A stretch of DNA of 64,000 nucleotides from Haliclona indistincta (Eukaryota; Porifera; Demospongiae; Haplosclerida; Chalinidae), in assembly GCA_964017065.1 (NCBI GenBank), contig OZ024785.1, positions 2,437,142 through 2,501,141 on the forward strand, given 5' to 3'. Below, in pieces: positions 42 to 63,847 of this stretch. The notes under the pieces were generated by a model. The model did not search any database. It worked only from the letters and a program-made list of their open reading frames with translations, and was not told where the DNA came from. The number at the start of each line of letters is the position of its first letter. Within the stretch, counting starts at the first letter, position 1. Made by a program: the position numbers and the translations under genes.

Positions 42-1255
42 TATACACAGTGTTAATGGTGATTCTCTGGTTAGCTTGATTCTCTACTACTAGTGATACA
101 TTGTAGGTTGAGTTACAGGATAGTGGACTAGTGACATTATCACTAGACACATCAAACATCAGTTGATTGGTTGGTCCATATACAATAGTCCCTCCATCCA
201 ACACATCTGTCAGCACAAGTGTGACAGCAATGGCTACCTCATATTGACACACTTCTGGTACCTGGACAGTATTACTGTAGTTGAGTGATAGTAACCAAAT
301 ATTGTGTGTTGGTCATACATTAGCTGTGGCTTGAATAATGTTATCATGACATGTTATGGTGACATTGCTTTGGTTCCTTGCAGTAGCGTCTAATCCTGTT
401 ATGAAAACAACGAATGAATATAGTTATACAATACTAGTTAGTACTGCACCTTTAGGGAATCCACTAGTAGTGTTTGTACTGGGTCCAGTGCTACCCACAT
501 CAGTCTCAGCCTCCACTGTGAACACCAGCTCATCACACTGACCTCCTCCTCCTCCTCTCAGCACTAACTGCTCATCACATGTTGTCCACTGAGTGATCTG
601 GTTTGATGTGAGGTTGAGCATGGTCACAGTGTAGTTGATGACAGGGAATGGCCATGGAGCAGTCCAGGTGAGAGTGAGGGCAGTCAGGTTAGTCACTGTC
701 ACTGAGGGAGCTACAGGAGGGCCTGGTGGACCTGTGAGGAGATTAACACTCAGGGTAGCCATGTTCTACTGGCACTGTGTGTACCTTCGACAATGATTAG
801 CTTTGCTATCTGAGTTTGAATAAAGCAAGTGCTTCCACGGTTGAAGACGCATCTAAGCTCAGTGTTATTGTTGTTTAGTATTGGTAGAATATTCACTACA
901 CATGAACTGTTGCTAGTATCACACGCACCACTAGGTGTGCCTTCTCCTTGACACTCATAAGATATGTTCATGTTGGACACATATTCTCTTGCAGCATCAT
1001 TGTTTATAATAACTTCATTGACCTTCAGTTCAATTCTACCTTCACCTTCACACATGAATGTGATATTGTTCACTCCTGGTAGAGTAACACGGGTTTGAGG
1101 CTGTACCAGAACTAGATCAAGACTGTTATCATAGACATGCTAGTCAACATCACAGTTACTATAGTTACTGCTAGCTCAGTGAACTCACTCTCTGCCTTTG
1201 TGTGTATTAGAATAACAGCAGTAGCCATCATCAGTGCAGCTATCTTCATGTTCAT
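42..1255 (-). CDS. R1, Ig-FN3 receptor, 3' part beyond the window edge
   Basis: Five exons are visible: 1189-1255 (signal peptide, starts MNMKIAALMM), 785-1111 (Ig-like domain with Cys at the expected B and F strand positions), 450-731 (FN3), 319-395 and 42-261 (the split second FN3-like domain, starting VPEVCQYE). Splice sites are GT-AG and phases agree throughout. The stalk, membrane helix and short tail seen in R2 should lie to the left of position 1. The FN3 exon carries five glycines in the loop where paralogues carry three or four, from extra GGN codons. The product is inferred to be a type I surface receptor. It is a partial gene by window position only; no lesion is seen. Confidence 0.8.
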
Positions 1256-2525
1256 CTTCACTGCCTGTTTCACAGCTCTTGTTATTCCAATTGATAGATA
1301 TGGATCGTATAGATTAAGGGTGCTGATCCTAACAACCATTGACTTATTCAGGAATGTGCAAAGATTGTAATTAACAATGTACATGTACAAGGAATTTAAT
1401 AAACACCCTCTAAGTAGGAAAACCACGAGGTAAGCAGCTCATAATCGCACTTTCAAGCATGATACACGAAAAAGCTCTATGTTACTGCCTTCGCCTTGTT
1501 GAAGTACGTATATATCCACAATCTGAAGTTCTACTGCCCGAGTGAAAGAAAGTTTTATTAGCCTAAGCGTTGTATCAAGCTGCACCCGTCACGTTTCCGT
1601 CTGGCACTTTCAGCGCTCATAATTTGCAATGTGTACAGCCTACACCAGTCTTATAACATAGGTCTTTGGTTTCTTGGAATATCAGCAGTAGTTTCTGAGA
1701 TACAGTCCCCTAGCAACCAGCCAAAAATACATGCATGGGCGTGAACCTGCACCCTTAAGCAAGATATGACCACCAAGCAGTGGCTTTGATCTTACGGTCA
1801 CCCGAGCTACAATATGTACTATCACTGATTCCACATGCCAACTGTAGTGGGAGTTTATTACTTGTTAGTATACGCACCTTTGCTTTACTGTATTATGCCT
1901 AACGGTCATTAAGGGCATAGTTATTTTAAACATGTCAATAGTAGGATTAGTAGGATATCAGATTTGATTATGTTGTCTAGTAACTGTTCACTGGTGCTGT
2001 GGGCGTGGTTAATGTGATAAATTGGGCGTGGTTAATGTGATAATTGGGTACTACCATACACTAGTATTGATTATATACACATGCTTCTTGTATTAGTCTC
2101 TTGCAACTGGTCAATCGTGCTGTGGGTGTGATCTTTACATCTTATTCCTACATATCACTCAATCACGGAACTAGTACGATGATACTGTTAGCAGCACACA
2201 TGGCTTAGTTTAATGACACCCTTTCTTCTACAGGTCAAGTCGTGTAGCATGGAGTAGCTGAAGAGAGGTAGATGGCTGGCGCTACTGATAAAGATAAAGC
2301 ACACTATACCAAGGTGCGTACCACTATCGCACTCCTCCCCTCATGATGACCTGAGTGTTACAACAATAGCATGCAGTTACTCTTCGCTAGTGTATCTATA
2401 ATCTCGTGCTATTAATAGTATAGTACAATGATGTCATGTTACTATTATTAGTAGCAGCAAACATTGTTGACTAAAGCAGAATACAGGCATGTGGTAATCG
2501 TAAATGCAGTCCTTGCTCGAGCAAT
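1256..2525. other. Spacer between R1 and R2
   Basis: No gene is seen. The block from about 1400 to 1760 recurs after R2 (4780-5030, continuing at 6899) and inverted at 10766-11110. Near 2235-2300 is a block conserved beside every short-tailed gene; on the minus strand it resembles a decayed piece of the long cytoplasmic tail exon of R9 (see findings). Confidence 0.6.
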
Positions 2526-4631
2526 CTAAGTTTTGATTTCGTAATCGTTTTCTTGACTCTCTTTCTCATCAAGTTCCACTGGTGCTATAAGATAGTAACA
2601 CATGATCATTAGTGTCTCTAAGCTAGTCCGTACCATTCTTATGTTGCTTTGAGCTGTGTCTAATAAAGGCAGCTGCCATGATAGTTATAGTGACAATGAT
2701 GATGATGAGTATTATTATAGACAGTATAACAGGGATTCCAATAGTGACCCAGTTACTGACAGTAGACTCCATTTGACCTGTACAGCAATATATTGATAAT
2801 AATAGTGCATTAGGTAGGACTGGCTCTAGGGATACGGCTAATATGCGGGCACTGCTTCCGGCATAATAGGTAAATTTTTTCCCAGCATTATTCGAAGCAT
2901 AATCGGTAAAAATTTAACATAATCAGTAGGTGTGGTTGTTACACCCACCACATTCGAATGTGCGTTCAAATTCAACAGCAACACAAGAACAAGCAAGCAC
3001 AGCTTGTATTTGAAAATGCGTTGTCAATTTGTCGACAGTAAGCTAGCAGCTGTGAGCTGTCTTAGCCTGCCTATCAATCGTTCAATATTGATGATCATGT
3101 GAGGTAGCATATTTGAAAGCATAATATGAAACTTTGTGAGCATTATCGGTGAAAATTTGAGCAGTGCGGAATAGAATAATGGGTAAATTTTTGAGCATAA
3201 TAGCCTCATCCCTAACTGGCTCACTAGTAGGTGTGGGTGTGGTTATTATAGTGTTAGTGGGTGTGGTTATGGGTGTGGTCAATAGAGTGCTTGTGGGTGT
3301 GGTCACGTGTTGACTTGCTGTGGTAGTCATGGGTTGACCTGGTATATTAGTAGTAGCTGGCGCCATTGATGCTGTAATAATGCAATATACATGTGTCTAC
3401 ATGTGCTGTATCTAACTCACCGTACACAGTGTTAATGGTGATTGTCTGGTTAGCTTGATTCTCTACTACTAGTGATACATTGTAGGTTGAGTTACAGGAT
3501 AGTGGACTAGTGACATTATCACTAGACACATCAAACATCAGTTGATTGGTTGGTCCATATACAATAGTCCCTCCATCCAACACATCTGTCAGCACAAGTG
3601 TGACAGCAATGGCTGCCTCATATTGACACACTTCTGGTACCTGTACAGTATTACTGTAGTTGAGTGATAGTAATCAAATATTGTGTGTTGGTCATACATT
3701 AGCTGTGGCTTGAATAATGTTATCATGACATGTTATGGTGACATTGCTTTGGTTCCTTGCAGTAGTGTCTAATCCTTTTATGAAAACAACAAATGAATAT
3801 AGTTATACAATACTAGTTAGTACTGCACCTTTAGGGAATCCACTAGTAGTGTTTGTACTGGGTCCAGTGCTACCCACATCAGTCTCAGCCTCCACTGTGA
3901 ACACCAGCTCATCACACTGACCTCCTCCTCCTCTCAGCACTAACTGCTCATCACATGTTGTCCACTGAGTGATCTGGTTTGATGTGAGGTTGAGCATGGT
4001 CACAGTGTAGTTGATGACAGGGAATGGCCATGGAGCAGTCCAGGTGAGAGTGAGGGCAGTCAGGTTAGTCACTGTCACTGAGGGAGCTACAGGAGGGCCT
4101 GGTGGACCTGTAAGAAGATTAACACTCAGGGTAGCCATGTTCTACTGGCACTGTGTGTACCTGTGACAATGATTAGCTTTGCTATCTGAGTTTGACTAAA
4201 GCAAGTGCTTCCACGATTGAAGAGGCATCTGAGCTCAGTGTTATTGTTGTTTAGTATTGGTAGAATATTCACTACACATGAACTGTTGCTAGTATCACAC
4301 GCAGCACTAGGTATGCCTTCTCCTTGACACTCATAAGATATGTTTCTTCTGGAAACATACTCTCTTGCACCATCATTGTTTAGAATAACTTCATTGACCT
4401 TCAGATCAATTCTACCTTCACCCTCACACATGAATGTGATATTGTTGACTCCTGGTAGAGTAACACGGGTTTGAGGCTGTACCAGAACTAGATCAAGACT
4501 GTTATCATAGACATGCTAGTCAACATCATAGTTACTATAGTTACTGCTAGCTCAGTGAACTCACTCTCTGCCTTTGTGTGTATTAGAATAACAGCAGTAG
4601 CCATCATCAGTGCAGCTATCTTCATGTTCAT
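2526..4631 (-). CDS. R2, Ig-FN3 receptor with short DYEI tail
   Basis: Eight exons: 4565-4631 signal peptide, 4161-4487 Ig, 3829-4107 FN3, 3698-3774 and 3421-3640 second FN3-like domain, 3225-3371 Thr/Pro stalk, 2634-2777 membrane helix, 2526-2584 tail. The sum is 1320 nt, a 439-residue protein. The Ig exon has the paired Cys (FMCEGEG and ELRCLF) and several N-glycosylation sites. The membrane exon reads WVTIGIPVILSIIILIIIVT, then a basic stop-transfer stretch. The tail is about 35 residues and ends NDYEIKT, a possible SH2-docking or ITIM-like tyrosine. A 388-bp MITE lies in the stalk-to-membrane intron. Role in surface recognition is inferred. Gene structure is well supported by phase agreement with the paralogues. 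Confidence 0.85.
2827..3214. mobile_element. MITE with 8-bp target duplication in an R2 intron
   Basis: The 388-bp element has imperfect terminal inverted repeats (tagggatacggctaatatgc against tagggatgaggctattatgc read from the other end). The 8-bp duplication actggctc flanks it at 2819-2826 and 3215-3222, which suits an hAT-like family. It has no coding capacity. The same element sits at the same place in R3. Confidence 0.8.
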
Positions 4632-7781: not shown

Positions 7782-9843
7782 CTAAGTTTTGATTTCGTAA
7801 TCGTTTTCTTGACTCTCTTTCTCATCAAGTTCCACTGGTGCTATAAGATAGTAACACATGATCATTAGTGTCTCTAAGCTAGTCCGTACCATTCTTATGT
7901 TGCTTTGAGCTGTGTCTAATAAAGGCAGCTGCCATGATAGTTATAGTGACAATGATGATGATGAGTATTATTATAGACAGTATAACAGGGATTCCAATAG
8001 TGACCCAGTTACTGACAGTAGACTCCATTTGACCTGTACAGCAATATATTGATAATAATAGTGCATTAGGTAGGACTGGCTCTAGGGATACGGCTAATAT
8101 GCGGGCACTGCTTCCGGCATAATAGGTAAATTTTTTCCCAGCATTATTCGAAGCATAATCGGTAAAAATTTAACATAATCAGTAGGTGTGGTTGTTACAC
8201 CCACCACATTCGAATGTGCGTTCAAATTCAACAGCAACACAAGAACAAGCAAGCACAGCTTGTATTTGAAAATGCGTTGTCAATTTGTCGACAGTAAGCT
8301 AGCAGCTGTGAGCTGTCTTAGCCTGCCTATCAATCGTTCAATATTGATGATCATGTGAGGTAGCATATTTGAAAGCATAATATGAAACTTTGTGAGCATT
8401 ATCGGTGAAAATTTGAGCAGTGCGGAATAGAATAATGGGTAAATTTTTGAGCATAATAGCCTCATCCCTAACTGGCTCACTAGTAGGTGTGGGTGTGGTT
8501 ATTATAGTGTCAGTGGGTGTGGTTATGGGTGTGATCAATAGAGTGCTTGTGGGTGTTGTTACATGTTGACTTGCTGTAGTAGTCATTGGTTGACCTGGTA
8601 GATTAGTAGTAGCTGGCGCCATTGATGCTGTAATATTGCAATATACATGTGTCTACATGTGCTGTATCTAACTCACTGTACACAGTGTTAATGGTGATTG
8701 TCTGGTTAGCTTGATTCTCTACTACTAATGATACATTGTAGGTTGAGTTACAGGATAGTGGACTAGTGACATTATCACTAGACACATCAAACATCAGTTG
8801 ATTGGTTGGTCCATATACAATAGTCCCTCCATCCAACACATCTGTCAGCACAAGTGTGACAGCAATGGCTGCCTCATATTGACACACTTCTGGTACCTGG
8901 ACAGTATTACTGTAGTTGAGTGATAGTAATCAAATATTGTGTGTTGGTCATACATTAGCTGTGGCTTGAATAATGTTATCATGACATGTTATGGTGACAT
9001 TGCTTTGGTTCCTTGTAGTAGTGTCTAATCCTATTATGAAAACAACGAATGAATATAGTTATACAATACTAGTTAGTACTGCACCTTTAGGGAATCCACT
9101 AGTAGTGTTTGTACTGGGTCCAGTGCTACCCACATCAGTCTCAGCCTCCACTGTGAACACCAGCTCATCACACTGACCTCCTCCTCCTCTCAGCACTAAC
9201 TGCTCATCACATGTTGTCCACTGAGTGATCTGGTTTGATGTGAGGTTGAGCATGGTCACAGTGTAGTTGATGACAGGGAATGGCCATGGAGCAGTCCAGG
9301 TGAGAGTGAGGGCAGTCAGGTTAGTCACTGTCACTGAGGGAGCTACAGGAGGGTCTGGTGGACCTGGAGTAGCAATGGCGATAGTGTCAGCAGTGCTTGG
9401 TTGGCTCAGCTCACCTGTTACTACTATTAGTTGAGCTGTGTGTGTCATTTCATGGCAGTCACTGTTTTGAAAGACACAATGCATCATAGTGCCATTGTTT
9501 CCTATACTTGCTAGTACAGTAACCCTCCATTCACTGGCTCCATTGCACCCAGCACTGCTACCAGCTATATACCGCCATGTTATACCACGATTAGTGAAGT
9601 GCTGTACTACACTGTTATCAGCCACTGTATGGTCAATGTTCAATATACTGCTCCCGTTTCCACGACATATGAAGGTAACATTCTCCCCAACAAGAGACAC
9701 TTTGGATTGTGGCTGGATCAAGACTAGGAGAAGCTGATCACTTCATTAGCTAGTCTGTGGTTGCACTTACCTTCAGAACATACTTGATTTAGTACATAAA
9801 TCAATATGATCGCTGCTGCAAATTGGTGCTGGCTTTTCGTCAT
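7782..9843 (-). CDS. R3, chimeric Ig-FN3 receptor with short DYEI tail
   Basis: Eight exons: 9771-9843 signal peptide, 9415-9723 Ig, 9085-9363 FN3, 8954-9030 and 8677-8896 second FN3-like domain, 8481-8627 stalk, 7890-8033 membrane helix, 7782-7840 tail. The sum is 1308 nt, 435 residues. From FN3 to tail the gene nearly matches R2 at a constant 5256-bp offset, MITE included. Its signal peptide (MTKSQHQFAAAIILIYV) and Ig exon (LIQPQSKVSLVGENVTFIC) instead match R11 and R13, 38-49 kb away. It is therefore a mosaic made by recombination or gene conversion. The tail ends NDYEIKT. Confidence 0.85.
8083..8470. mobile_element. Second copy of the R2 intron MITE
   Basis: It is the same element as at 2827-3214, with the same 8-bp duplication (8075-8082 and 8471-8478). 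Sharing of the insertion shows that R2 and R3 were duplicated after it. Confidence 0.8.
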
Positions 9844-10072
9844 TTCTGTATTAGCGGTCATTTTACATCCGGCCTGGCCCTGCCCTTTTTATACGCCTGC
9901 TGAACTCGCAGAACGTCCACGTCGATTCCGTAATTCCCAATATTTTTATCCGCCCGCTGTTCGTTTAAGACCAAAATTTGTGGTCTTAATAGAGAGTGCC
10001 TATATAAAATCATGTATAAAATGATCAAAAATAGTGGTCTTAATATAGAGGTGGTCTTATTACACAAGTGGT
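9844..10072. other. Unassigned insert upstream of R3
   Basis: This stretch starts right after the R3 start codon region and has no match to the R11/R13 5' flank. It includes two short direct repeats of tagtggtctta type near 9980-10050. No gene is seen. It is probably the remnant of a transposon. Confidence 0.4.
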
Positions 10073-15479: not shown

Positions 15480-15593
15480 GATTGGATGCACTGTCCAACT
15501 GGTTTAGACTATAGCAACAGCGAACAGAAACGACACAAGCCAGTCGAAAATCAAACTAGCTAGCAGCAAGTCACTTGTCTACGGTCTGCTATA

Positions 15594-20837: not shown

Positions 20838-20844
20838 GCACACA

Positions 20845-20891
<47 letters not shown>

Positions 20892-46564: not shown

Positions 46565-48334
46565 TTAGTTGATGGTGATGTAGTGTGGTTTGCCGGATGG
46601 TGGAGAAGAGGTTAATGGTGTATGGCCTAGCTTCTGCTCTGTTGGGAGATGGTTAGGGAGAAGGTGATGTGACATGGCGTACCTTGCCGTGGAGGAGTTG
46701 GTGGAGGATTATCGGGTAGAGGAGTGATTGGCTGCATGATTTTAACCTGGTCATACAATGCTCCTTCGTACAATGGATTCTCTTCTAACGTATCAGGTAT
46801 CTTTGAGACTGAAGCAATATATTCTTCTTTATGCTTATCTTATCTTTCGTGCAATTACCTTTTTTCTTTCGTTTTGTGATGAAACAGGCTATTATTATCA
46901 CTATGGTGACGCAGAATGTTAGCGGGATGAGAATCCCAATACTGATTAGTTCAACAAATTCCGACGTTGCTGTGCTCACTACAAACAAAGGCGTGTAAGG
47001 ATCAGTACTACTGGATGAAACTGCTTACTAGAAGGGGTGACAGTTGGTAGCTGGTTCATGGATGAAGCTGTATCAAGCAGCCATCTTGATTCTGTTGCTG
47101 TGTGTGTGACGACAGTGCTAGACACCACTGGACCTACTCAAAAAAATGTTAGCAATATCAAAATTTTTATTATATCAATTTTGTTTACCTTCAAGTGAGG
47201 TGTTTATTGATATTGTCTGACCAGCAATGTTTGTGATAGTGATGATAATAGAGTATGGCGGCTCTATATGACTGCTGTTGAGCTGTTTATTGCTGATGGT
47301 TATATTGTTAGGAGTGGTCCCATTGCCTGACAGACTGTAGCCGTTATTGTCGCTTATTGTGTATTCGTAGGACAGCTGGTCGTCATAGTTACACACTTGT
47401 GGTAGATTCTGTTGGTATTAACACAATGTTTTTTGCTTAGTGTGTGTATCGTTAGCTCACTGTGATTAAGATTTTTAGTCCTTCGGTGATCATCTCAACA
47501 TGTAACGATGAATTCGTGACTAGAGAAAGAGCTACAAAGATTGTCAGAAGCTGTTATCATGTGTTTGTGTACCTTTAGGGAATCCACTAGTAGTGTTTGT
47601 ACTGGGTCCAGTGCTACCCACATCAGTCTCAGCCTCCACTGTGAACACCAGCTCATCACACTGACCTCCTCCTCCTCTCAGCACTAACTGCTCATCACAT
47701 GTTGTCCACTGAGTGATCTGGTTTGATGTGAGGTTGAGCATGGTCACAGTGTAGTTGATGACAGGGAATGGCCATGGAGCAGTCCAGGTGAGAGTGAGGG
47801 CAGTCAGGTTAGTCACTGTCACTGAGGGAGCTACAGGAGGGCCTGGTGGACCTGGAGTAGCAATGGCGATAGTGTCAGCAGTGGTTGGTTGGCTCAGCTT
47901 ACCTGTTACTACTATCAGTTGAGCTGTGTGTGTCATTTCATGGCAGTCACTGTTATCAAAGACACAATGCATCATAGTGTCATTGTTTCCTATACTTACT
48001 AGTACAGTAACCCTCCATTCACTGGCTCCATTGCACCCAGCACTGCTACCAGCTATACTCTGCCATGTTATACCACGACTAGTGAAGTGCTGTAATACAC
48101 TGCTATCAGCCACTGTATGGTCAATGTTCAATATACTGCTCCCGTTTCCACGACATATGAAGGTAACATTCTCCCCAACAAGAGACACTTTGGATTGTGG
48201 CTGGATCAAGACTAGGAGAAGCTGATCACTTCACTAGCTAGTCTGTGGTTGCACTTACCTTTAGAACACACTTGATGTAGTACATAAATCAATATGATTG
48301 CAGCTGCAAATTGGTGCTGGCTTTTCGTCACCAT
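46565..48334 (-). CDS. R11, Ig-FN3 receptor with NPLYE / YITI tail
   Basis: Nine exons: 48259-48334 signal peptide (MVTKSQHQFAAAIILIYV), 47903-48211 Ig, 47573-47851 FN3, 47461-47519 and 47189-47408 second FN3-like domain, 47029-47133 stalk, 46859-46978 membrane helix (ISIGILIPLTFCVTIVIIIA), 46683-46808 and 46565-46638 tail. The sum is 1368 nt, 455 residues. The tail carries NPLYEGALYDQV, TPPR and a C-terminal PHYITIN. It is nearly identical to R13, 10 kb away, in all exons. No lesion is seen. The 1.86-kb transposon at 48369 lies only 35 bp upstream of its start codon and may affect its promoter. Confidence 0.87.
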
Positions 48335-50527: not shown

Positions 50528-50632
50528 TCAAGTGTCTTTTTCTTTCGGTGCAATAAGGTTCGTTTTAGCAATCGGTGGTTCGGAGTTTCGAGGTGACGAC
50601 CCAGGTGGAAGCGAGGCAGAGGACATGGTTAT

Positions 50633-50876
50633 TGTGGAGAGTTGACCTCACTCTCTACTGTATTGTATTGTATCAATACTACTCTACATTGTTAATAATA
50701 CGAGCCTTGTCGATTGTCACATGCCTACACGTCTCTGATATTGTTTACTGTAGTTTTGTCATATTGGTATATATAGACACTGCTCATCTATTTTGTCACT
50801 CTTCTTCTCTGGTCCCTCTGTCATAATCCATACTAAGTATTTGGCTCGAACCTGTTGAACCCTGCGTTACGCTACA
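50633..50876 (+). repeat. 5' LTR of the Gypsy element
   Basis: 244 bp, starting tgtggagagt and ending cgctaca. It appears identical to the other LTR. A candidate primer-binding site, tggtggcagcgg, follows directly. The 5-bp target duplication gttat is at 50628-50632. Confidence 0.95.
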
Positions 50877-50891
50877 TGGTGGCAGCGGTGT

Positions 50892-53800
50892 GTGACTATG
50901 GCAGGAATTCTACAGCTACAACCCCTTGAGCAGTTCAGCTTTCTTCATCCAGAACAGTGGCCAAGGTGGAAACAGAGGTTCGACCAGTTTAGGCTTGCCT
51001 CTGGACTTATCGCGGAGAGCGAAGAACGCCAGATAAGCATGCTGCTATACTCAATGGGGCCAGACGCTCAGGATGTACTGGAGACAACCAGCATCACAGC
51101 GGAAGAGAAAGCGAGGTTCGACTCGGTCGTCAGCAAGTTTGACGAATACTTCGGAGTAAGGAAGAATGTTATTTTTGAGCGGGCTCAGTTCAACCTCAGG
51201 AAGCAACAAGCTGGTGAGACCGGTGAACAGTACATTCTGGCTCTCTACGCTCATGCAGCAAAGTGCGGCTACACAGACCAGACGCAAAAGGAGAGAGATA
51301 TCCGTGACCGTCTCGTGGTTGGAATTCGCGACACACAGTTGTCAAGAAGGATGCAACTAGACCCCTTGCTGACGTTGGACAACGCGAAGAAGCATGTACT
51401 CCAGACAGAGGCTGTGCAAGAGACGCACAAGAAACTCGCTGCGGGTGACAGTCGCGACAATCCTGTGGAGGTTGACTCAGTAACGTGGAAGAAGGACAAG
51501 CGTGGAACTCCTCGTGGTGGTGACAGACACGTTCAACGACATCGTCAACGTTCTCAATTCCGGAAGAACGACCGTGACCAGAAGTCGTCGCCGTCCGTGT
51601 GTACGAGATGCGGTAAAGAGCCTCACAGCAGAAGAGTCTGTCCAGCTAGAGATGCGGAGTGCCACAAGTGCGGAAAGCGAGGACACTTCAGTGCACAATG
51701 CCGTTCCAAGAACGTCATCTCTAATGTCTCTTTAGAACCCGGTGCTGGACAGGGCAAAGATGTTCCAGTGGACACTGGTTTCCTCGATTCACTGACTGCT
51801 GCTGAGACTTCTGGACCTGCAGTTTGGAATGTGACAGTATTTGTTGACAAGCAGGCAGTAACATTTAAAGTAGATACTGGTGCAGAGGTTACAGCCATTT
51901 CTGATTTCTCCTACAGGCAACTCAAAGGGATCCACCTCAACACTGCAAGCAGAGTGCTGTGTGGACCTGACCATTCTCGTCTCAAGGTGCTGGGACAGTT
52001 CAAGTCAACTCTTGAAGATAAGGAGGAACATGATCTCAGACTAAGAGCTGTGCTGAACAGAATGGCAGAGGCAGGCACTACCCTCAACATGGAAAAGTGT
52101 GTGTTTCAGCAGACGGAGTTAAAGTTCCTTGGTCATGTGCTCAACCAAGATGGGGTGTCTCCGGATCCTGAGAAAACAAGAGCAATCGCTTTGATGCCAG
52201 CTCCTGATGGAGTTCCTGCTCTAAGACGCTTCCTGGGGATGGTTAACCACCTTGGAAAGTTCTCTCATCGACTATCAGAGCTGACTAAGCCACTACGTGA
52301 TCTGCTAAGTGCTAAGAACTCATGGAGTTGGGGTCCAGATCAAGATAGAGCATTTCAAGAAGTAAAAGAGGAGCTCTCTAGACCCACAGTGCTTGCTCTC
52401 TATAGTCCTCAGGTCGAGACCAAAGTTTCTGCTGATAGCTCATCATTTGGGCTAGGAGCCGTATTGCTGCAGCGCCAAACATCAGATTCTGCTTGGAAAC
52501 CGGTGGCTTACGCCTCTAGAGCTCTTACCGAAACAGAGGGTCGCTATGCTCAAGTCGAAAAGGAGGCACTGGCATGTACTTGGGCAGCAGAGAAATTTTC
52601 GGACTATCTACTTGGTAAACATTTCACAATGGAGACAGATCACAAGCCATTGGTGTCCCTTCTCGGAAACAAGAATTTGGACAACTTACCACCTAGGGTG
52701 CTACGATTTCGTCTACGTCTATCAAGATTTCTGTACTCTGTAGAACACGTACCAGGAAAGTCGTTCTATACTGCCGATACTCTGTCCCGAAGTCTTGCTC
52801 CTTCTACTGACTCAGATGGAGCTGTATCCTCTAGAGATGTTAATTGTTTCATTGATGCCATAATAACTTCCCTCCCAGCCTCTACAGATCGGTTGCAGAC
52901 CTACAAGGCAGCTCAAGAGGAGGATCAGATCTGTAAGCAGATTATCACCTACTGCAAGCAGGGATGGCCCGAGAAACAAGTTCGTTCTAAGCAGTTCAAC
53001 TCGTACTGGGGTGCTCGTCACAAGTTCACCATAGTGGACGGATTGCTCCTATATGGCTCATGTATCGTCATTCCTTCCTCTCTGCAGGCAGAGACACTTG
53101 ACAAGATTCATACTGGTCATCTGGGAGTGCAAAAGTGCCTGTCGAGAGCTAAAACGTCAGTGTGGTGGCCCGGCATGACTGGACAGTTGAAAAGAAAAAT
53201 CCAGGAGTGTCGAGAGTGCAGAGAGCATCTTGTCCAGAGAAAGGAACCACTCATTCCCTCAAAGCTACCAGCCTATCCTTGGGAGGAAGTAGGAGCAGAT
53301 TTATTCCATCTGAGAGGTGTCACCTATCTGCTCGTGGTTGATTATTTTTCCAAGTTTCCAGAATTGATCAAGCTTACATCCACCACTGCATCAAATGTGA
53401 TCAACGCACTGAAAGCTGTCTTTGCCAGACATGGCATTCCTTCCTGTTTGAGGAGCGATAATGGACCTCAATTTGACTGCTCTGAGATGGAAGCATTCGC
53501 CACTTCGTATGGATTCAAGCACCGTACCAGCAGTCCAAGATTTCCTCAGAGTAATGGACAAGTGGAACGTGCCGTACAGACCATCAAGAATCTTCTGAGA
53601 AAGTCAGATGATCTGTTCCTGTCACTATTGGTCTATCGTTCTACTCCTTTGAGGTGGTGTGGTAGGAGCCCTGCTGAGCTGTGTATGGGTAGGAAGTTGA
53701 GCACGAACCTTCCACAACTCCAGAGTGCCTTGATTCCTGAGTGGACCTACCTTGACCAGTATCGTGAAGCAGACAAGATTTACAAGGATCGAGTCAAACA

Positions 53801-54161
53801 GGACTACGATCGACGACATGGTACTAACGTGCTACCTGAGCTACCGAACCACTCAGCAGTCTTAGTGGACGATCCAACGGGTCACAACAGAGAGCCTGGG
53901 ATTACCATTGATACGGCAGATGCTCCTCGGTCATATGTGGTTAAGACTTCTTCTGGTGGTATCATCAGACGCAATCGTCACCAACTCATTACTAACCCCT
54001 CATCCTCACCACCTAAGAAGACAGTGAGATTTGCTGACCCACCTGCTGACTGTATTGAGCCACCTGCTAATCATGATACTCCTCCTATCTTCAAGCGCAG
54101 TCCCATTGTTACAAGATCACGAACGAGAGCTCTCCAAACAAAGGGGGATGTGGAGAGTTGA
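50892..54161 (+). CDS. Gag-Pol of the Gypsy element, reverse-transcriptase core absent
   Basis: One open frame of 1089 residues; the start at 50892 or the ATG at 50898 would both serve. In order: Gag capsid-like part (about 1-225), two zinc knuckles (about 236-271, CTRCGKEPHSRRVC and CHKCGKRGHFSAQC), aspartic protease with VDTGAEV (about 326), then an abrupt jump at about residue 375 to the end of reverse transcriptase (FLGHVLNQDGV), RNase H (SADSSSFGLGAVLLQ, TDHKPL) and integrase (zinc-binding HxxxH and CxxC, then catalytic Asp, SDNGPQF and NGQVERA). The fingers, palm and the YxDD active site are missing, yet the frame is kept. It should depend on a complete relative for reverse transcription (inference). 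Confidence 0.9.
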   Translation: MTMAGILQLQPLEQFSFLHPEQWPRWKQRFDQFRLASGLIAESEERQISMLLYSMGPDAQDVLETTSITAEEKARFDSVVSKFDEYFGVRKNVIFERAQFNLRKQQAGETGEQYILALYAHAAKCGYTDQTQKERDIRDRLVVGIRDTQLSRRMQLDPLLTLDNAKKHVLQTEAVQETHKKLAAGDSRDNPVEVDSVTWKKDKRGTPRGGDRHVQRHRQRSQFRKNDRDQKSSPSVCTRCGKEPHSRRVCPARDAECHKCGKRGHFSAQCRSKNVISNVSLEPGAGQGKDVPVDTGFLDSLTAAETSGPAVWNVTVFVDKQAVTFKVDTGAEVTAISDFSYRQLKGIHLNTASRVLCGPDHSRLKVLGQFKSTLEDKEEHDLRLRAVLNRMAEAGTTLNMEKCVFQQTELKFLGHVLNQDGVSPDPEKTRAIALMPAPDGVPALRRFLGMVNHLGKFSHRLSELTKPLRDLLSAKNSWSWGPDQDRAFQEVKEELSRPTVLALYSPQVETKVSADSSSFGLGAVLLQRQTSDSAWKPVAYASRALTETEGRYAQVEKEALACTWAAEKFSDYLLGKHFTMETDHKPLVSLLGNKNLDNLPPRVLRFRLRLSRFLYSVEHVPGKSFYTADTLSRSLAPSTDSDGAVSSRDVNCFIDAIITSLPASTDRLQTYKAAQEEDQICKQIITYCKQGWPEKQVRSKQFNSYWGARHKFTIVDGLLLYGSCIVIPSSLQAETLDKIHTGHLGVQKCLSRAKTSVWWPGMTGQLKRKIQECRECREHLVQRKEPLIPSKLPAYPWEEVGADLFHLRGVTYLLVVDYFSKFPELIKLTSTTASNVINALKAVFARHGIPSCLRSDNGPQFDCSEMEAFATSYGFKHRTSSPRFPQSNGQVERAVQTIKNLLRKSDDLFLSLLVYRSTPLRWCGRSPAELCMGRKLSTNLPQLQSALIPEWTYLDQYREADKIYKDRVKQDYDRRHGTNVLPELPNHSAVLVDDPTGHNREPGITIDTADAPRSYVVKTSSGGIIRRNRHQLITNPSSSPPKKTVRFADPPADCIEPPANHDTPPIFKRSPIVTRSRTRALQTKGDVES

Positions 54162-54392
54162 CCTCACTCTCTACTGTATTGTATTGTATCAATACTACTC
54201 TACATTGTTAATAATACGAGCCTTGTCGATTGTCACATGCCTACACGTCTCTGATATTGTTTACTGTAGTTTTGTCATATTGGTATATATAGACACTGCT
54301 CATCTATTTTGTCACTCTTCTTCTCTGGTCCCTCTGTCATAATCCATACTAAGTATTTGGCTCGAACCTGTTGAACCCTGCGTTACGCTACA
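54149..54392 (+). repeat. 3' LTR of the Gypsy element
   Basis: 244 bp, same as 50633-50876. The last codons of the Gag-Pol frame overlap its first bases. Confidence 0.95.
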
Positions 54393-56621
54393 GTTATGTA
54401 CTCATCTTGATCAAAGTTTCCTGGGAATGGTAGACCAGCTGCTTTCTCTCTCGGTGGCGGTATGGATGGTGGCAGGAGTGGTTCGCTAGGGCTGCTTGCT
54501 GGCGTAGCACTCAACTCTTTCTTCAGAGTGGATATCTCTGGAATAATATCGTAGATAGTACCGTTGTTAGACACATCGTAGATAGGATTCTCTCTCATTG
54601 GAGGGATGCTAATCTCCATTGTCATAGTGTTTGTATAAGATGACTTGATGCCTTTAGAATTGACAAAGAAGCATTGTATCAGGAACTTGTATGTGGTCAT
54701 ACCTGATATACGGTTCCGTTTCTGTGATCGGACATTGATTATGCATCCTATCACTGTGCATAGTATCACTGCTATGCACAGCAACAGTAGAGAGGCCACT
54801 CCTCCAGCAACACCAGCTGCAATGATCTACTGATTGCTGGTAGCTCCTGTAGATAACACAAGAGTAACTTCAAACATCTTTCAGTTTGTCTTACCTGGAG
54901 TCGGAGTAGGTGGATGTGTGGTAGTACTGGTTGTGCTGGTTGCTATGGATACACTGGTTGCTATGGATACACTGGTTGCTATGGATACACTGTTAGTTAT
55001 GTAATCTGTAATGATAAAATTCCAGAGTGCAATGCAGTGTCTATGTAAACAAACATGGACGTATACTCTGATGTCATGATATTATTAGCATTCAGTTTAT
55101 GATGTCTCAAGAAGGTATTAGCATACAACAGTGTAGTACATGGTCATTACCCACTGAGATTCTAACACAAATACTCACTGATGGTCTTGTTGAGAGTAAC
55201 TGACATTCCACCATCCGCCATGACCACAGCTGTAATGCAATATGGTCTCAGCTCTCTCTCCATGTTGTGTTCTCCTAGACTAGTAGTGGAGCTGTGGAGA
55301 GAGCTTTGTGACCGGTTTGCGAACAATGCTTGACAACTGTTAGTGTGGATTGTGTACGAGTATTGAAATCGCTGATAAGTACAGACTTCCGGCAAATTCT
55401 AGAATTGTAGACTGAATTAGCTGATAAATGAGTGATCATGACCGAGTACCTTGACTGTCAGTAGTATAGTAGTGTTCACCTCTGATACCATTAGAATAGT
55501 TTCTTTAAAACTGACCTCTATAACAGTAATGATGTCAGATAGTGTATTAACATAGTGTACCTTTAGGGAATCCACTAGTAGTGTTTGTACTGGGTCCAGT
55601 GCTACCCACATCAGTCTCAGCCTCCACTGTGAACACCAGCTCATCACACTGACCACTTTCTTGTTCGTTTGTCAGCACATATCGTTCCTCAGTTGCATTC
55701 CACTGAGTGATCTGGTTTGATGTGAGGTTGAGCATGGTCACAGTGTAGTTGATGACAGGGAATGGCCATGGAGCAGTCCAGGTGAGAGTGAGGGCAGTCA
55801 GGTTAGTCACTGTCACTGAGGGAGCTACAGGAGGGCCTGGTGGACCTGGAGTAGCAATGGTGGTAATGATTAGTGTCAGCAGTGGTTGGTTGGTTCAGCT
55901 TACCTGTTACTGCAATGAGTTGAGCTGTGTGTGTCACTCCTCCCCAACATTGGTTATCATGAAAGAAGCATTTCAGCATCGTGCCATTGTTCATGTTACT
56001 TGCTAGTATGCTAACTCTCCATTGACTGATACCACTGCAGTCACTGCTGTTGTACTGCCATGTTATACCACGACCAGCGAAATATTCAACTAATTCATCA
56101 ACAGCATCAGTACTCGCAATGTTTAGTTTGCTTGGGCCTTGCCCTTTGCACCAGAAGATGGCACTTTCTCCCAGCAGGGCAGTTTGTGTGTGTGGGTGCT
56201 CTGTGACTGTCAGATTAATGGATAAAGCAACTCTGCTCACACCTCTCTCTATACTTACTTGCAGCAAGACTGCCTCTCAGAGCCACAGCTACCAGCAGGA
56301 AGACAGCAATCAGTCGAATGCTCATCATTTCTCCAGCACTGGTGTGTGATTCGTTTACTGTTATAATATCAACTACTGAGTTGTGCTGCTACATCAATAC
56401 GTGCACAGGACACCTGTCATCACAACAGACATGTTCTCCTTTTGAAATCATTACATCACAATCCTGACACACCATTATACAACACAGTCATCAAAATATA
56501 CAGCACAGTCATCAAAATATACAGCACAGTCATCAAAATAATACAAAACAGTCTTCAAAATGATTTGGATCATCAAACAAATTCAAATAGATAACAAATC
56601 GTTTGTTTGTTGCATTTGTGG

Positions 56622-58393
56622 TTAGTTGATGGTGATGTAGTGTGGTTTGCCGGATGGTGGAGAAGGGGTAAATGGTGTATGGCCTAGCTTCTGCTCTGTT
56701 GGGAGATGGTTAGGGAGATGGTGATGTGACATGGCGTACCTTGCCGCGGAGGAGTTGGTGGAGGATTATCGGGTAGAGGAGTGATCGGCTGAATGATTTT
56801 AACCTGGTCATACAATGCTCCTTCGTATAATGGATTCTCTTCTAACGTATCAGGTATCTTTGAGACTGAAGCAATATAGTCTTCTTTGTGCTTATCTTAT
56901 CTTTCGTGTAATTACCTTTTTTCTTTCGTTTTGTGATGAAACAGGCTGTTATTATCACTATGGTGACGCAGAATGTTAGCGGGATGAGAATCCCAATACT
57001 GATTAGTTCAACAAATTCCGACGTTGCTGCGCTCACTACAAAGGCGTGTAAGTTTTAGTCCTACTAGATGGAACTGCTTACTGGAAGGGGTGACAGTTGG
57101 CAGCTGGTTCATGGATGAAGCTGTACCAAGCAGCCATCTTGATTCTGTTGCTGTGAGTGTGACGGCAGTGCTGGACACCACTGGACCTACTCAAAAAAAT
57201 GATAGCAATATCAAAAATTTTTATTATAAATTATCGATTTTGTTTACCTTCAAGTGAGGCGTTTATTGATATTGTCTGACCAGCAATGTTTGTGATAGTG
57301 ATGGTAATACAGTATGGCGGCTCTATATGACTGCTGTTGAGCTGTTCATTGCTGATGGTTATATTGTTAGGAGTGGTCCCATTGTCTGACAGACTGTAGC
57401 CGTTATTGCCGCTTATTGTGTATTCGTAGGACAGCTGGTCGTCATAGTAACACACCTCTGGTAGATTCTGTTGGTATTAACACAATGTGTTTTGCTTAGC
57501 GTGTGTATCGATAGCTCACTGTGATTAAGATTCTTAGTCCTTCGGTGATCATCTCAACATGTAACGATGAATTAGTGTCTAGAGAAAGAGCTACAAGGAT
57601 TGTCAGAAGCTGTTATCATGTGTTAGTGCACCTTTAGGGAATCCACTAGTAGTGTTTGTACTGGGTCCAGTACTACCCACATCAGTCTCAGCCTCCACTG
57701 TGAACACCAGCTCATCACACTGACCTCCTCCTCCTCTCAGCACTAACTGCTCACCACATGTTGTCCACTGAGTGATCTGGTTTGATGTGAGGTTGAGCAT
57801 GGTCACAGTGTAGTTGATGATAGGGAATGGCCATGGAGCAGTCCAGGTGAGATTGAGGGCAGTCAGGTTAGTCACTGTCACTGAGGGAGCTACAGGAGGG
57901 TCTGGTGGACCTGGAGTAGCAATGGTGATAGTGTCAGCAGTGCTTGGTTGGCTCAGTTCACCTGTTACTACTATTAGTTGAGCTGTGTGTGTCATTTCAT
58001 GGCAGTCACTGTTTTGAAAGACACAATGGATCATAGTGTCATTGTTTCCTATACTTGCTAGTACAGTAACCCTCCATTCACTGGCTCCATTGCACCCAGC
58101 ACTGCTACCAGATATATACTGCCATGTTATACCACGATTAGTGAAGTGCGTTATCACACTGTTATCAGCCACTGTATGGTCAATGTTCAATATACTGCTC
58201 CCGTTTCCACGACATATGAAGGTAACATTCTCCCCAACAAGAGACACTTTGGATTGTGGCTGGATCAAGACTAGGAGAAGCTGACCACTTCATTAGCTAA
58301 TCTGTGGTTGCGCTTACCTTTAGAACACACTTGATGTAGTACATAAATCAATATGATCGCTGCTGCAAATTGGTGCTGGCTTTTCGTCACCAT
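56622..58393 (-). CDS. R13, Ig-FN3 receptor with NPLYE / YITI tail
   Basis: Nine exons: 58318-58393 signal peptide, 57962-58270 Ig (FICRGNG and IHCVFQN hold the Cys pair), 57632-57910 FN3, 57520-57578 and 57248-57467 second FN3-like domain, 57082-57186 stalk, 56916-57035 membrane helix, 56740-56865 and 56622-56695 tail. The sum is 1368 nt, 455 residues. Membrane helix at about 357-383 is followed by TKRKKKG. The tail has NPLYEGALYDQV, then PPPTPPR, and ends PHYITIN. The FN3 donor is GTGCAC, where R11 has GTACAC. The gene is intact and close to R11. Its Ig domain matches the one now in R3. Confidence 0.88.
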
Positions 58394-58746: not shown

Positions 58747-60834
58747 TCAAGTGTCTTTTTCTTTCGGTGCAATAAGGTTCGTTTTAGCAACTGGTGGTTC
58801 GGAGTATCGAGGTGACGACCCAGGTGGAAGCGAGGCAGAGGACATGGTAATGTACTCGTCTTGATCAAAGTTTCCTGGGAATGGTAGACCAGCTGCTTTC
58901 TCTCTCGGTGGCGGTATGGATGGTGGCAGGAGTGGTTCTCTAGGACTGCTTGCTGGCGTAGCACTCAACTCTTTCTTCAGAGTGGATATCTCTGGAATAA
59001 TATCGTAGATAGTACCGTTGTTAGACACATCGTAGATAGGATTCTCTCTCATTGGAGGGATGCTAATCTCCATTGTCATAGTGTTTGTATAAGATGACTT
59101 GATGCCTTTAGAAGTGACAAAGAAGCGTTGTATCAGGAACTTTTATGTGCTCATACCTGATATACGGTTGCGTTTCTGTGATCGGACATTGATTATGCAT
59201 CCTATCACTGTACATAGTATCACTGCTATGCACAGCAACAGTAGAGAGGCCACTCCTCCAGCAACACCAGCTGCAATGATCTGCTGATTGTTGGTAGCTA
59301 CTGTAGATAACACAAGAATAATAATTTCAAACAGCATTCAGTTTGTCTTACCTTGAGTAGGAATAGGTGTAGTATTGGTTGTGCTGGTTGCTATGGATAC
59401 ACTGGTTGCTATGGATACACTGGTAGTTATGTAATCTGTAATGATAAAATTCCAGAGAGCTAATGCAGTGTCTATGTAAACAAACAGTGACTGCATTGAG
59501 GCTTTAGTGCTGTATACTCAGATATCATGATATTATTAGCATCCACTTGTGATGTCTCAAGTAGACAACAGTGTATATAGCGTAACCTTTGGGTCATTTC
59601 CCACTGAGACTCTAACACAAATACTCACTGATGGTCTTGTTGAAAGTAAATGACATTCCACCATCCGCCATGACCACAGCTGTGATGCAATATGGTCTCA
59701 GCTCTCTCTCCATGTGGTGTTTTCCTAGACTAGTATTGGAGCTGTGGAAAGAACTGTGTGACCGGTTTGCGAACAATGCTTGACAACTGTTAGTGTGGAT
59801 TGTGTACGAGTATTGAAATCGTTGATAAGTACAGACTTCCGGCAAATTCTAGAATTGTAGACTGAATTAGCTGATAAATGAGTGATCATGACCAAGTACC
59901 TTGACTGTCAGTAGTATAGTAGTGTCCACCTCTGATACCATTAGAATAGTGTCTTCAAAACTGACCTCTATAACAGTAATGATGTCAGCTAGTGTATTAA
60001 CATAGTGTACCTTTAGGGAATCCACTAGTAGTGTTTGTACTGGGTCCAGTGCTACCCACATCAGTCTCAGCCTCCACTGTGAACACCAGCTCATCACACT
60101 GACCACTTTCTTGTTCGTTTGTCAGCACATATTGTTCCTCAGTTGCAGTCCACTGAGTGATCTGGTTTGATGTGAGGTTGAGCATGGTCACAGTGTAGTT
60201 GATGACAGGGAATGGCCATGGAGCAGTCCAGGTGAGAGTGAGGGCAGTCAGGTTAGTCACTGTCACTGAGGGAGCTACAGGAGGGCCTGGTGGACCTGTA
60301 AGAAGATTAACACTCAGGGTAGCCATGTTTTACTGGCACTGTGTGTACCTTCGACAATGATTAGCTTTGCTGTCTGAGTTTGAATAAAGCAAGTGCTTCC
60401 TCGGTTGAAGACGCATCTAAGCTCAGTGTTATTGTTGTTTAGTATTGGTAGAATATTCACTACACATGAAGTGATGCTACTATCACACTTAGCACTAGGT
60501 GTGCCTTCTCCTTGACACTCATAAGATATGTTCATGTTGGACACATGCTCTCTTGCGGCATCAGTGTTTATAATAGCTCCATTGACCTTCAGATCAATTC
60601 TACCTTCACCTTCACACATGAATGTGATATTGTTCACTCCTGGTAGAGTAACATGGGTTTGAGGCTGTACCAGAACTAGATCAAGACTGTTATCACACTA
60701 TACAGTATGATGATAACACACTCCCTACACTATTATTGCATTCCAGTGCTTTCCTGTGCGGTGAACTTACTCTCTGCCTTTGCCTGTAGTAGAGCCACTG
60801 CCATCATCACGAGTACAGCTCTCTTCACATCCAT
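58747..60834 (-). CDS. R14, long-tailed Ig-FN3 receptor
   Basis: Eight exons: 60771-60834 signal peptide (MDVKRAVLVMMAVALLQAKA), 60349-60675 Ig, 60011-60295 FN3, 59900-59967 and 59629-59848 second FN3-like domain, 59352-59435 stalk with two SVSIAT-type repeats, 59157-59300 membrane helix, 58747-59105 tail. The sum is 1551 nt, 516 residues. The Ig exon must use the acceptor after gatctag; the earlier cag would give a stop. The Ig is the R1/R2 type although the tail is the R10/R12 type. Tail motifs: NPIYD (about 420), TIYDII, PPPR, DEYITM (YxxM, the classic PI3-kinase SH2 site) and PRYSEP. No lesion is seen. Confidence 0.88.
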
Positions 60835-61369
60835 TTTTACAGCCAGTAACTCAAGACGAACGTCCAGCTCAAAATGCACATTTAGCAAGCATGTTCTGTT
60901 TATAGCTGACCTATAGTTACTGCAACATCATAACATAGATTCCCAGTTATGAACTGTCGCCCATGCAGTATATAGATAGCAACAACAGCTGTTTCCTGTT
61001 GTGAGTTTGTCTTACAGAACTATGTGAGCCGACACGTGCAGGATTCTTCAACTTGAAAACAAATTTTTCATGTGTAAACATTTTTGTTTGTTCTGATCAT
61101 GTGAATGTATATATTAACAACTGTAAACGACACAAACGGAACAGAAAAATGCGTTGATGATCAATTTGTGCATTGGTGGTGAGGATTGAATTTCTGGTAA
61201 AAATAACACAATAAACGAACGATACACAATTTACAAAAAGCACTCAATTTTACACTGTACACATATGTTGTGAGTCTGAATTGTCGATAGTGATCACAAC
61301 TGATAGGCATTTTGATAACTGCTACACACCTGTGCTATATGTTAGCCTGCCAATGGCTACACATTGTTT
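60835..61369. other. Spacer between R14 and R15
   Basis: 535 bp, AT-rich, with no gene, repeat or transposon end that I can recognise. It should contain the R14 promoter and R15 3' end. Confidence 0.5.
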
Positions 61370-63847
61370 TCACAGCGTCGCTAGCCTATCGTAGTCGTCC
61401 GATTCTTCTGTGCGAGTCTGCGAGGGCAAGTCACAGCTGAATTTCCGGTTTTCGAGCTGCGGTTGTGAACCAAGGGTGGGCGGCTCTGTGTAGCGAGGAG
61501 AAGCGGTGGGTGGAGTTGAGGCAGCGTCAGGGCTGGACGCCATTACTATGTACTGTTCACCGTCAGCTTCTGTTGCAGCTGGATTGCTGCCGGGTGTTGT
61601 CGGTGGAATCACGATGCTGACTTGAGCCTCGGTGACGGGGGTCACCACGTTCTCTGTGCTGTCACCGGTGTGTTTGGTCGATATGCTGACATCCATGGTA
61701 GCACGTCTTGGTGGAGGCAGAATAGGAGGTGCTGGACCTGTGAAATCAATAGAATCGAGGCCGGTGAATACTGGAATGAATTCATATATTTCGGTCTCTG
61801 CTCCGTCGTAAATCGGGTTTTTAGCCATTGGAGGAACAAAGGGTTTACTTGATAATGTCCGACGCAAGACTGTATAAGAAAAGTGCAATTGTGATTATTG
61901 TAAGGTGCTTTGAGTGTTTGGTACCTCTGTTCCTCTGTGTGCGACATACACACAGCCACCATGACATGAGGAAGAGGACAGGAAACAGAATAAAAGCCAC
62001 TAGCAGGCCTGGTATGATAGCTATCACAATAAGGGACTCTTCCGTTGGTGGTACTGATAATGGTGAAGGACAAATAAACAGCTTATACAACAAGTGAAGT
62101 CACACACATGCATTGTGTATATACAGATAATGTGTGTACCTTGTGGGTCTGATGATGGTCGAAGTGGATCTATAATGGTAAAATGAAACCAAGATATCAT
62201 CGATACTCTATCATCCATGCCCTAGTGCGGGTATCTCTACTCACCTGATGGTCGTGATGTAGTCCTGCTGCCGATATCTGCAATGAGTAGTACACAGGTC
62301 ATGCTAATCGATATCTAGCTATGGCGTGATAACTCACCTAGAGTAGTTGTGGTAGGGCTTGTTTCTGTATAATACAAGACAAGATAACACCACAATCAAT
62401 ATCAAGCTTGTGCACAAGTACGCATGGATCTGCATTATACAATATTCAAAGGCTATTGGTAACGTTTATACTGATCAAATAATTTTTTCAGCGTATTCTT
62501 TTTGTCTTTACTACACACACGAATTGTTTTCTCTTTGCTGTCTGTGACAAGAAAGAGTTCAAAGGATGTCCCTCTGAGTGGAGTACACTATTTGGTTGTC
62601 TCTACTACTGATACTCGCGACACTTCATTACAAACCCACACACAAGGAAGTGTAATCACTCACCGAATGTAAAATTTGTGATCACCGAATAGCTCTCAAA
62701 GTGTTCGTTCAACATCGTCAAGTTTAACATGTATTTGACGTTGAATTCGATTCCGTCTGAAACAGTCTTGTTTGTTGATGTGGTGATGTTACGCATTAGC
62801 AATCTCTTCTCTTCCCAGTCTCTAATCTCGTACACATATGATATTCTCTGATAATGGCACACATCCGGCGCCTGTGAATACATTAGGTATTGTACACAGA
62901 ATGAGCTTATCAGTGCGTACCTCGAATTGGATACCCAATATAGCGTTTCTGCCCTGCACTGTTTTGTTAAGCTCAATCTTAGGTTCAGTCACATTTGTAT
63001 TAAAAATTGCTGAGCAAATTGAGCGAATATGTTACTTTGTGTTCTAGAAGAAAAATGTGTACTTACATTGAGGGAATCCATTAGTATTGCTGTTTGTACT
63101 GGGTCCAGTGCTACCCACATCAGTCTCAGCCTCCACTGTGAACACCAGCTCATCACACTGACCTCTTTCTTGTTCGTTTGTGAGCACATATCGTTCCTCA
63201 GTTGCAGTCCACTGAGTGATCTGGTTTGATGTGAGGTTGAGCATGGTCACAGTGTAGTTCGAGACAGGGAATGGCCATGGAGCAGTCCAGGTGAGAGTGA
63301 GGGCAGTCAGGTTAAAGGTTTGGACTGTTGGAGCTGCAGGAGGGCCTGGTGGACCTGTGAGATATAAAATTATTTCAATTCTTGTTTGTTTGGTTCTCTA
63401 CTCACCATTCACAACTACAAGAACAGCTTTATTAGAAATGTATTGATCAAAAGTACAGCTGATTCTGGTGTTGTTATTCTGTTCATTGGCTAGCACACTC
63501 AGATCCCATCTTACAGTGGTTCCATCTTCAGGAGGAGTTCGTGTCCAAGTGAAGTTTCTACTTTCATAGCTTTGTATTGCTTGCATATTAGGAAAGCGTA
63601 GCCCCACAACAAGATCATCATTGACATGTAGAGTGGGTCTGCTGTCTCCTCCTGCAGTAGTTCCTTCACATGAGTATTGCACAGTTGTTCCAGGATAGGC
63701 CACACGACCTATTGGCTGCACTAGCACTATAGAATACAAGCAGTATCATGTCATGCAAAGATGGACGAATCTATGCTTACCTTTTGCTTGGCAAACCGAT
63801 GCCACAAGAGCTGCAAACAGCAAAGCTATCGTGAATGAGGAAGACAT
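61370..63847 (-). CDS. R15, long-tailed Ig-FN3 receptor, most divergent member
   Basis: Ten exons: 63781-63847 signal peptide (MSSSFTIALLFAALVASVCQ), 63406-63726 Ig, 63067-63354 FN3, 62921-63009 and 62664-62871 second FN3-like domain, three tiny stalk exons 62338-62364, 62245-62277 and 62140-62169, 61925-62053 membrane helix, 61370-61869 tail. The sum is 1692 nt, 563 residues. The tail (about 166 residues) carries NPIYD, EIYEFIP, PPPRR, EQYIVM (YxxM), PRYTEP and a C-terminal DDYDRLATL, an ITIM-like site. Most of the sequence is far from the paralogues, yet the core of FN3 is nearly identical to theirs. No lesion is seen. Upstream 63848-64000 holds no recognisable feature. Confidence 0.88.

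Follow-up and report, generated by a model that had tools for sequence, protein, structure and literature searches.

A tandem array of modular Ig-FN3 receptor genes in the sponge Haliclona indistincta, with a near-identical FN3 exon between divergent heads and tails

This study concerns 64,000 nucleotides from the genome of the sponge Haliclona indistincta (GCA_964017065.1; 144.03 Mb, 46 contigs), hereafter the window, located at positions 2,437,142-2,501,141 of contig OZ024785.1 (C3 in what follows) and occupied by a tandem array of genes coding for putative receptors with an immunoglobulin-type (Ig) head, a fibronectin type III (FN3) domain, a transmembrane (TM) segment and a tyrosine-bearing tail. 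An earlier note had described the locus as a 15-gene tandem array on one strand, with limits falling exactly at the ATG of unit 1 (63847) and at the end of the D3b exon of unit 15 (42). All 15 units do have an Ig-type exon with an FN3-type exon after it, and all 15 lie on the minus strand, but the number of distinct units is 13. The array extends past both sides of the window (C3:2,407,130-2,558,508), keeping to the minus strand throughout and comprising 33 FN3-bearing units, of which 31 are distinct; the heads of the latter include 26 that are full-length and recognisable, three split by a frameshift and two truncated. Contig C7 holds two further FN3 units with a membrane-proximal domain of type D3c.

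Alignment of exon libraries to the 15 units gave the order signal peptide, head, FN3, D3a, D3b, linker, TM and tail, D3 being the membrane-proximal domain. Splice sites were predicted from the sequence, using AG/GT borders and the exon-library alignment: the leader ends in phase 1, the head and FN3 exons are 1-1, D3a is 1-0, D3b is 0-1, and the linker and TM exons, again 1-1, are followed by the tail. Symmetrical 1-1 exons, such as those of the head and FN3, are classically associated with exon exchange. As regards the single exon plan previously proposed, the core order and phases are common to the units, but the 5' end differs in those with IgC heads (four units, two of them distinct), where leader and head share a single exon. 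The AG/GT borders hold apart from the FN3 donor of unit 7, those of the linker in units 4 and 9-12 and that of the tail in units 9 and 11 (uncertain alignment), and the IgC head borders as aligned, for which a phase-1 donor two bases further fits by reading. Unit 6 has an uncertain leader junction, the linker of unit 1 consists of three small exons, and the linker, TM and tail of unit 15 lie outside the window. The units are the following.

61370..63847, minus strand: unit 1, IgF head, FN3, D3c, TM, long tail CY4 (spliced model)
58747..60834, minus strand: unit 2, chimera, IgA head (nearest in the window to unit 15), D3y/TM3/CY3 tail as in unit 6
56684..58393, minus strand: unit 3, IgB head, FN3, D3x, long tail CY5
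50534..56270, minus strand: unit 4, IgE head, FN3, D3y (upper limit approximate, leader not modelled)
46627..48334, minus strand: unit 5, IgB head, FN3, D3x, long tail CY5
44231..46270, minus strand: unit 6, IgE head, FN3, D3y, TM3, long tail CY3
40736..43361, minus strand: unit 7, IgE head, FN3 without donor, D3 type b, TM2, long tail CY2
38755..40512, minus strand: unit 8, IgD head, FN3, D3, TM1, short tail
34441..36302, minus strand: unit 9, IgC head, short tail, duplicate of unit 11 across the gap
29021..30918, minus strand: unit 10, IgC head, short tail, duplicate of unit 12 across the gap
23902..25763, minus strand: unit 11, IgC head, FN3, D3, TM1, short tail
18482..20379, minus strand: unit 12, IgC head, FN3, D3, TM1, short tail
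7782..9846, minus strand: unit 13, chimera, head of type IgB (97% identical to units 3 and 5) on a body with a short tail (97% identical to unit 14)
2526..4631, minus strand: unit 14, IgA head, FN3, D3, TM1, short tail
42..1255, minus strand: unit 15, IgA head, FN3, D3 (TM and tail exons at C3:2436961 and 2436762)

The unit count depends on a duplication that flanks an assembly gap.

26387..26586, no strand: assembly gap, 200 N
16048..26357, no strand: first copy of a mismatch-free 10.3-kb duplication (second copy 26587-36898)

The two copies align over 10,312 columns with no mismatches and one gap, the right copy beginning at base 1 after the 200-N gap and the left one stopping 29 bases short of it. 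A copy so placed looks like unmerged contig ends, which gives 13 distinct units instead of 15; judged from its sequence, the duplication is almost certainly an unmerged contig overlap, with units 9 and 10 as copies of units 11 and 12, and both were excluded from the divergence counts. The statement that several copies are damaged or chimeric can be narrowed to two clearly damaged units among the 13, namely unit 4, whose TM exon has a stop and whose tail holds a long terminal repeat (LTR) element, and unit 7, which has lost the FN3 splice donor, together with chimerism established for units 2 and 13.

The new point of this array is its modularity. The ectodomains vary, as had been noticed before, falling into eight head types (A to H), and these are combined with six types of D3 domain across the array and with several tails. 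Synonymous divergence (pS) was compared between distinct units after dropping FN3 pieces shorter than 200 nucleotides (nt), which kept 30 of the 31 (the last being the split FN3 at C3:2515564), and heads shorter than about 250 nt (the three frameshifted and the two truncated), which kept 26 heads for the analysis of stops and variation and 25 for pairwise pS. The 30-unit pairwise set includes the divergent FN3 at 2407492 and excludes C3:2515564 and the two C7 copies; a second FN3 set, of 32 copies, includes these three and excludes the one at 2407492. Between units with different heads (270 pairs, 25 units), median pS was 0.713 in the heads, that is, saturated, while the FN3 exon of those same pairs gave a median of 0.075 (interquartile 0.028-0.120, maximum 0.641). 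Similarly, the 157 pairs with different D3 types had a median pS of 0.729 in D3 vs 0.070 in FN3. A loop within FN3 occurs in two versions, and heads A, F and G, as well as D3, D3c and D3g, each pair with both.

The chimera test covered units 2 and 13, with parents picked from the self-comparison of the window. In windows of 100 bases, unit 13 follows unit 3 across leader and head (89-99% identity) and unit 14 thereafter, at 97-100% identity across FN3, D3a and D3b and at 93-100% from there to past the tail; the breakpoint lies inside FN3, at 9354-9306 (MaxChi 680, p<=0.0005, 2,000 permutations). Unit 2 joins a unit 15-like head to a unit 6-like tail (lowest window 64%, in the linker), with a breakpoint at about 60148, also inside FN3 (MaxChi 338, p<=0.0005, 2,000 permutations). 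In both units, the kinship of the flanking introns is that of the adjoining head or tail as far as the edge of the exon, where it changes. Heads A and B are thus found on both long and short tails.

Two tail classes were distinguished, spanning about 27-165 amino acids (aa): long tails in units 1-7, and short tails of about 27 aa with one tyrosine, ending in DYEIKT or DYEIIP, in units 8-15. Seven long-tail types were found, four in the window and three outside it, the latter by similarity. The tyrosine motifs reported earlier are present: NP[ILM]Y preceding Y[DE]x[IV] occurs in 7/7 long-tail types vs 1/140,000 shuffled tails; YxxM (4/7), a PPP run (5/7) and [ST]PRY[SAT]E (4/7) are also recurrent, and the CY4 tail of unit 1 carries NPIYDGAETEIYEFI, PPPR, EQYIVM and SPRYTE. 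The binding partners of these motifs would be PTB, SH2 and SH3 domains and PI3-kinase. Reading the tails as immunoreceptor tyrosine-based activation motifs was rejected, the spacing of the two tyrosines not fitting the consensus as generally known; against the generally known inhibition-motif (ITIM) consensus, VIYDHV of unit 7 fits and the other long-tail types fit partly.

The receptor structure first proposed, with a leader, an Ig head, FN3, one TM segment and a tyrosine-bearing tail, is supported by the gene models as well as by profile matches and predicted folds. Profile and model searches of the ectodomain support the Ig and FN3 folds, although Pfam alone placed fn3 below its cut-off and returned no Ig; the nearest fold and profile neighbours are receptor protein tyrosine phosphatase (PTP) delta, NCAM2 and titin. 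The D3 domain received no assignment from a search of PDB sequences (lowest E 0.16 and 1.2) or from profile comparison with the Ig-FN3 alignment. Pfam scans of four spliced proteins gave nothing above cut-off and found no enzyme domain in the tails, the best match in any tail region being TMEM154 in unit 14 (20.5 bits vs a cut-off of 30.3). The spliced receptors of units 5 and 1 had no match at E<=0.001 or E<=10 among 5.8 billion proteins, a result that we do not read as absence because relatives must have 5-residue words in common with the query and a score is given to the best candidates only. Searches of the open-licence PubMed Central (PMC) literature, which covers few subscription journals, brought up no description of this architecture.

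Selection was assessed through the ratio of nonsynonymous to synonymous divergence (pN/pS) within types, from independent (minimum spanning) comparisons, after dropping copies below 60% identity to the query (D3c copies) and pieces shorter than about 100 nt (short tails). The pooled heads gave 1.06 (p 0.78 vs 1), and no stop was found in the 26 full-length heads. The ratio was 0.42 (p 2.2e-6) for D3 types D3, g, x and y, 0.33 for eight D3c copies in a separate run, 0.54 (p 0.0097) for TM plus tails, and 0.65 (p 0.03) for FN3; the head ratio departs both from that of D3 (p 1.3e-4) and from that of TM plus tails (p 0.012). Among head types, IgE reached 6.97 (p 0.005 before correction for eight types), the values for IgB (2.32), IgG (2.25) and IgC (1.18) were not significant, and IgA, D, F and H were below 1. 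Within-type head variation is enriched from the first Cys to the I-x-W strand (60/211 vs 111/606 column observations, p 0.0023).

Related families occupy neighbouring and distant regions. A sister Ig-FN3 family lies at C3:2.02-2.40 Mb (2018318-2401340), mostly on the plus strand, with 75/94 FN3 matches, fragments counted. In the 20 kb read there (L036 and L037), a head pS of 0.62 accompanies an FN3 pS of 0.000 (L037 8555/8965 vs 842/1176), other FN3 pairs ranging from 0.14 to 0.33; the contrast therefore recurs there, in part. Three FN3 matches recur with identical scores and a 9,110-base spacing at C3:2361696-2366855 and 2370806-2375965, possibly a second false or very recent duplication. A third, very large Ig-FN3 family has at least 151 FN3 matches, about 108 among the 151 listed being on C3:2.85-3.98 Mb and the others on C1, C4-C7, C9 and C10, including sites at C4:0.99-1.11 Mb, C5:7.4-7.6 Mb, C6:10.8-11.0 Mb and C7:2.08-2.10 Mb.

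Reading of open reading frames (ORFs) of at least 90 aa, with Pfam scans of two of them, revealed no other cellular gene in the window, in accordance with the earlier description. Both scanned ORFs belong to mobile elements.

50859..54158, plus strand: Gypsy-type LTR retrotransposon ORF inside the unit 4 tail (zinc knuckle, RNase H and integrase matches, Pfam, three pieces)
15564..17141, plus strand: Crypton-like tyrosine recombinase ORF (Pfam DUF3504, E 1.1e-33; Phage_integrase; QRICH1)

The Gypsy-type element splits the tail exon of unit 4, whose end lies at 50644-50534, and a truncated copy of the Crypton-like ORF comes after the 200-N gap. In unit 12 and its duplicate, an insert with long inverted repeats separates the linker and TM exons (18740-19080) and by reading resembles a miniature inverted-repeat transposable element. 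The intron between head and FN3 is open in frame at 9062-9742, 47544-48230, 57603-58289, 19663-20397 and 42578-43309, and if retained it would therefore still code. Upstream of the FN3 at C3:2513935, a long open frame replaces most of the Ig head and may represent another N-terminal domain. Elsewhere in the assembly, C46 (24,895 bases) is mitochondrial (full cox1, and nad4L by reading). Its cox1 points to a demosponge, with a cluster labelled Demospongiae as the best named match (84% identity) and cnidarians at 82%, besides an unnamed protein at 90%. C45 (13,000 bases, 34% GC) has a long ORF of 666 aa under table 4 and is possibly a foreign contig, and in C44 (16,197 bases) a tandem repeat of about 497 bases fills the first 2,000 bases.

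The multigene recognition locus suggested earlier gains weight from the contrast in pN/pS between heads and stems, the homogenised FN3, the chimeras and the sister arrays. We consider it probable that the array codes for modular recognition receptors, directed at allogeneic cells or microbes and diversified by head-tail exchange at FN3; such recognition would be their most economical function. Each protein would form a rod in which a binding Ig-fold head, FN3, D3 and a linker rich in Thr and Ser lead to a single TM helix and the cytoplasmic tail. Recombination or gene conversion would keep the FN3 exon near identical array-wide, so that it could serve as a homologous joint for exchanging heads and tails, and one head type would be found with either a long tail (NPxY...Y[DE]x[IV], YxxM, SH3-type proline runs) or a short one. 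On contact with a ligand or cell, tyrosine kinases might phosphorylate the long tails, which would recruit PTB/SH2 adaptors, while short-tailed forms might modulate, compete or signal differently. Most probably the array serves the surface recognition of variable partners, be they allogeneic sponge cells or microbes.

It is quite conceivable that the ligands are microbes or symbionts, as in the immune sensing of a filter feeder, instead of allogeneic cells, with the same modular mechanism. Changing heads on constrained stems and tails suit either ligand, and the sister FN3 exons next door and in the third family are many for a single histocompatibility system; on the other hand, the present data do not separate microbial from allogeneic ligands, and the pattern of the Hydractinia allorecognition complex (ARC) is equally close (PMC11067881). 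That these are ordinary adhesion or guidance receptors of the LAR/NCAM/Dscam kind, expanded in this lineage and without non-self recognition, appears unlikely: their best fold and profile neighbours do belong to that circle, but the pooled heads evolve at close to the synonymous rate, chimeric and damaged units occur, and the four tails scanned bear no enzyme domain. Genes for adhesion and guidance receptors are usually few and conserved.

We find it improbable that the array is decaying under relaxed constraint, with a head ratio near 1 reflecting neutrality. The pooled ratio, the damage to units 4 and 7, and the five split or truncated heads among 31 agree with decay; however, 26 of the 31 heads are full length and free of stops, D3 and tails of these same genes are constrained, and NPxY...Y[DE]x[IV] is kept in every long-tail type found.

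An array inflated by haplotype or contig duplication is very improbable beyond units 9 and 10, for which the artefact holds. A 2.3-kb repeat at C3:2523184-2525498 also starts at base 1 after a gap (2522984-2523183) and is 90.6% identical to 2548143-2550456, 25 kb away. Neither of the two other 200-N gaps in the 194-kb region adjoins a near-exact copy of at least 1,500 bases, however, and the remaining repeats of that length are only 90-97% identical. Allelic copies as the origin of all near-duplicates were ruled out, the 10.3-kb copy excepted, because both members of each pair share one gap-free stretch. Finally, strong purifying selection or codon constraint, in place of recombination, can hardly account for the near-identity of FN3, since despite its pN/pS below 1 the synonymous sites are near identical too next to saturated exons, and the introns of units 2 and 13 switch kinship at the exon edge.

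Modular recognition receptors with exchange at FN3 remain our preferred reading. More tentatively, the region C3:2.0-4.0 Mb might constitute a sponge histocompatibility-like complex of several Ig-FN3 families, in which the homogenised FN3 would be a dedicated recombination joint, bringing together rapidly changing recognition heads and different signalling tails in germline paired receptors. If so, such a complex would be convergent with the vertebrate KIR/LILR and cnidarian Alr loci in an early-branching animal, and the shuffling of paired-receptor heads and tails at a homogenised exon would have arisen in a very early animal branch. To our knowledge, the genes behind sponge graft rejection are not settled. 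A locus with variable heads, constrained tails and a putative exchange mechanism opens that question to direct test, and the array is a concrete candidate for self or microbe recognition in a very simple animal. For one sponge grafting transcriptome, adhesion genes of the aggregation factor are reported as not significantly enriched (PMC5450542).

Several known systems invite comparison with this array, among them the sponge aggregation factor. The aggregation factor is a secreted proteoglycan core with Calx-beta and related repeats, whereas the array codes for predicted membrane receptors, and no aggregation-factor-type Pfam match was obtained in the six proteins or exons scanned. One report treats the aggregation factor family as a candidate for self-recognition in sponges (PMC5450542). 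As in LAR-type phosphatases, NCAM and Dscam, which give the best profile and fold matches, Ig precedes FN3; unlike them, the sponge receptors have a single Ig and FN3, belong to a fast-changing tandem array and showed no phosphatase domain in the four proteins scanned with Pfam.

KIR, LILR and CEACAM are tandem Ig receptors in which recombination at the level of exons has joined similar ectodomains to tails of either length. The near-identical heads A and B on both tail classes recall the KIR/LILR paired receptors; unlike these, which carry a charged residue there for an adaptor with an activation motif, the short-tail TM1 has no charged residue in its hydrophobic stretch, and in contrast to all three families the sponge tails carry NPxY and not clear tandem ITIMs, with FN3 as the junction. 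Concerted evolution is described for CEACAM (PMC7042247).

Comparable in architecture are Hydractinia Alr1, Alr2 and the Alr-like genes, likewise clustered type I membrane proteins of Ig fold with divergent ectodomains and damaged copies. As far as the accessible text of PMC11067881 goes, the ARC contains clustered Ig genes with pseudogenes, their Ig nature resting on domain architecture and structure prediction; the sponge array belongs to another phylum, its FN3 is nearly unchanged in nearly all units, and that text does not describe such a head/tail joint for Alr. The likeness to Alr is one of architecture, known here from the genes of one assembly. The array is probably a multigene Ig recognition locus akin in its working to Alr and KIR/LILR, and we class it with neither.

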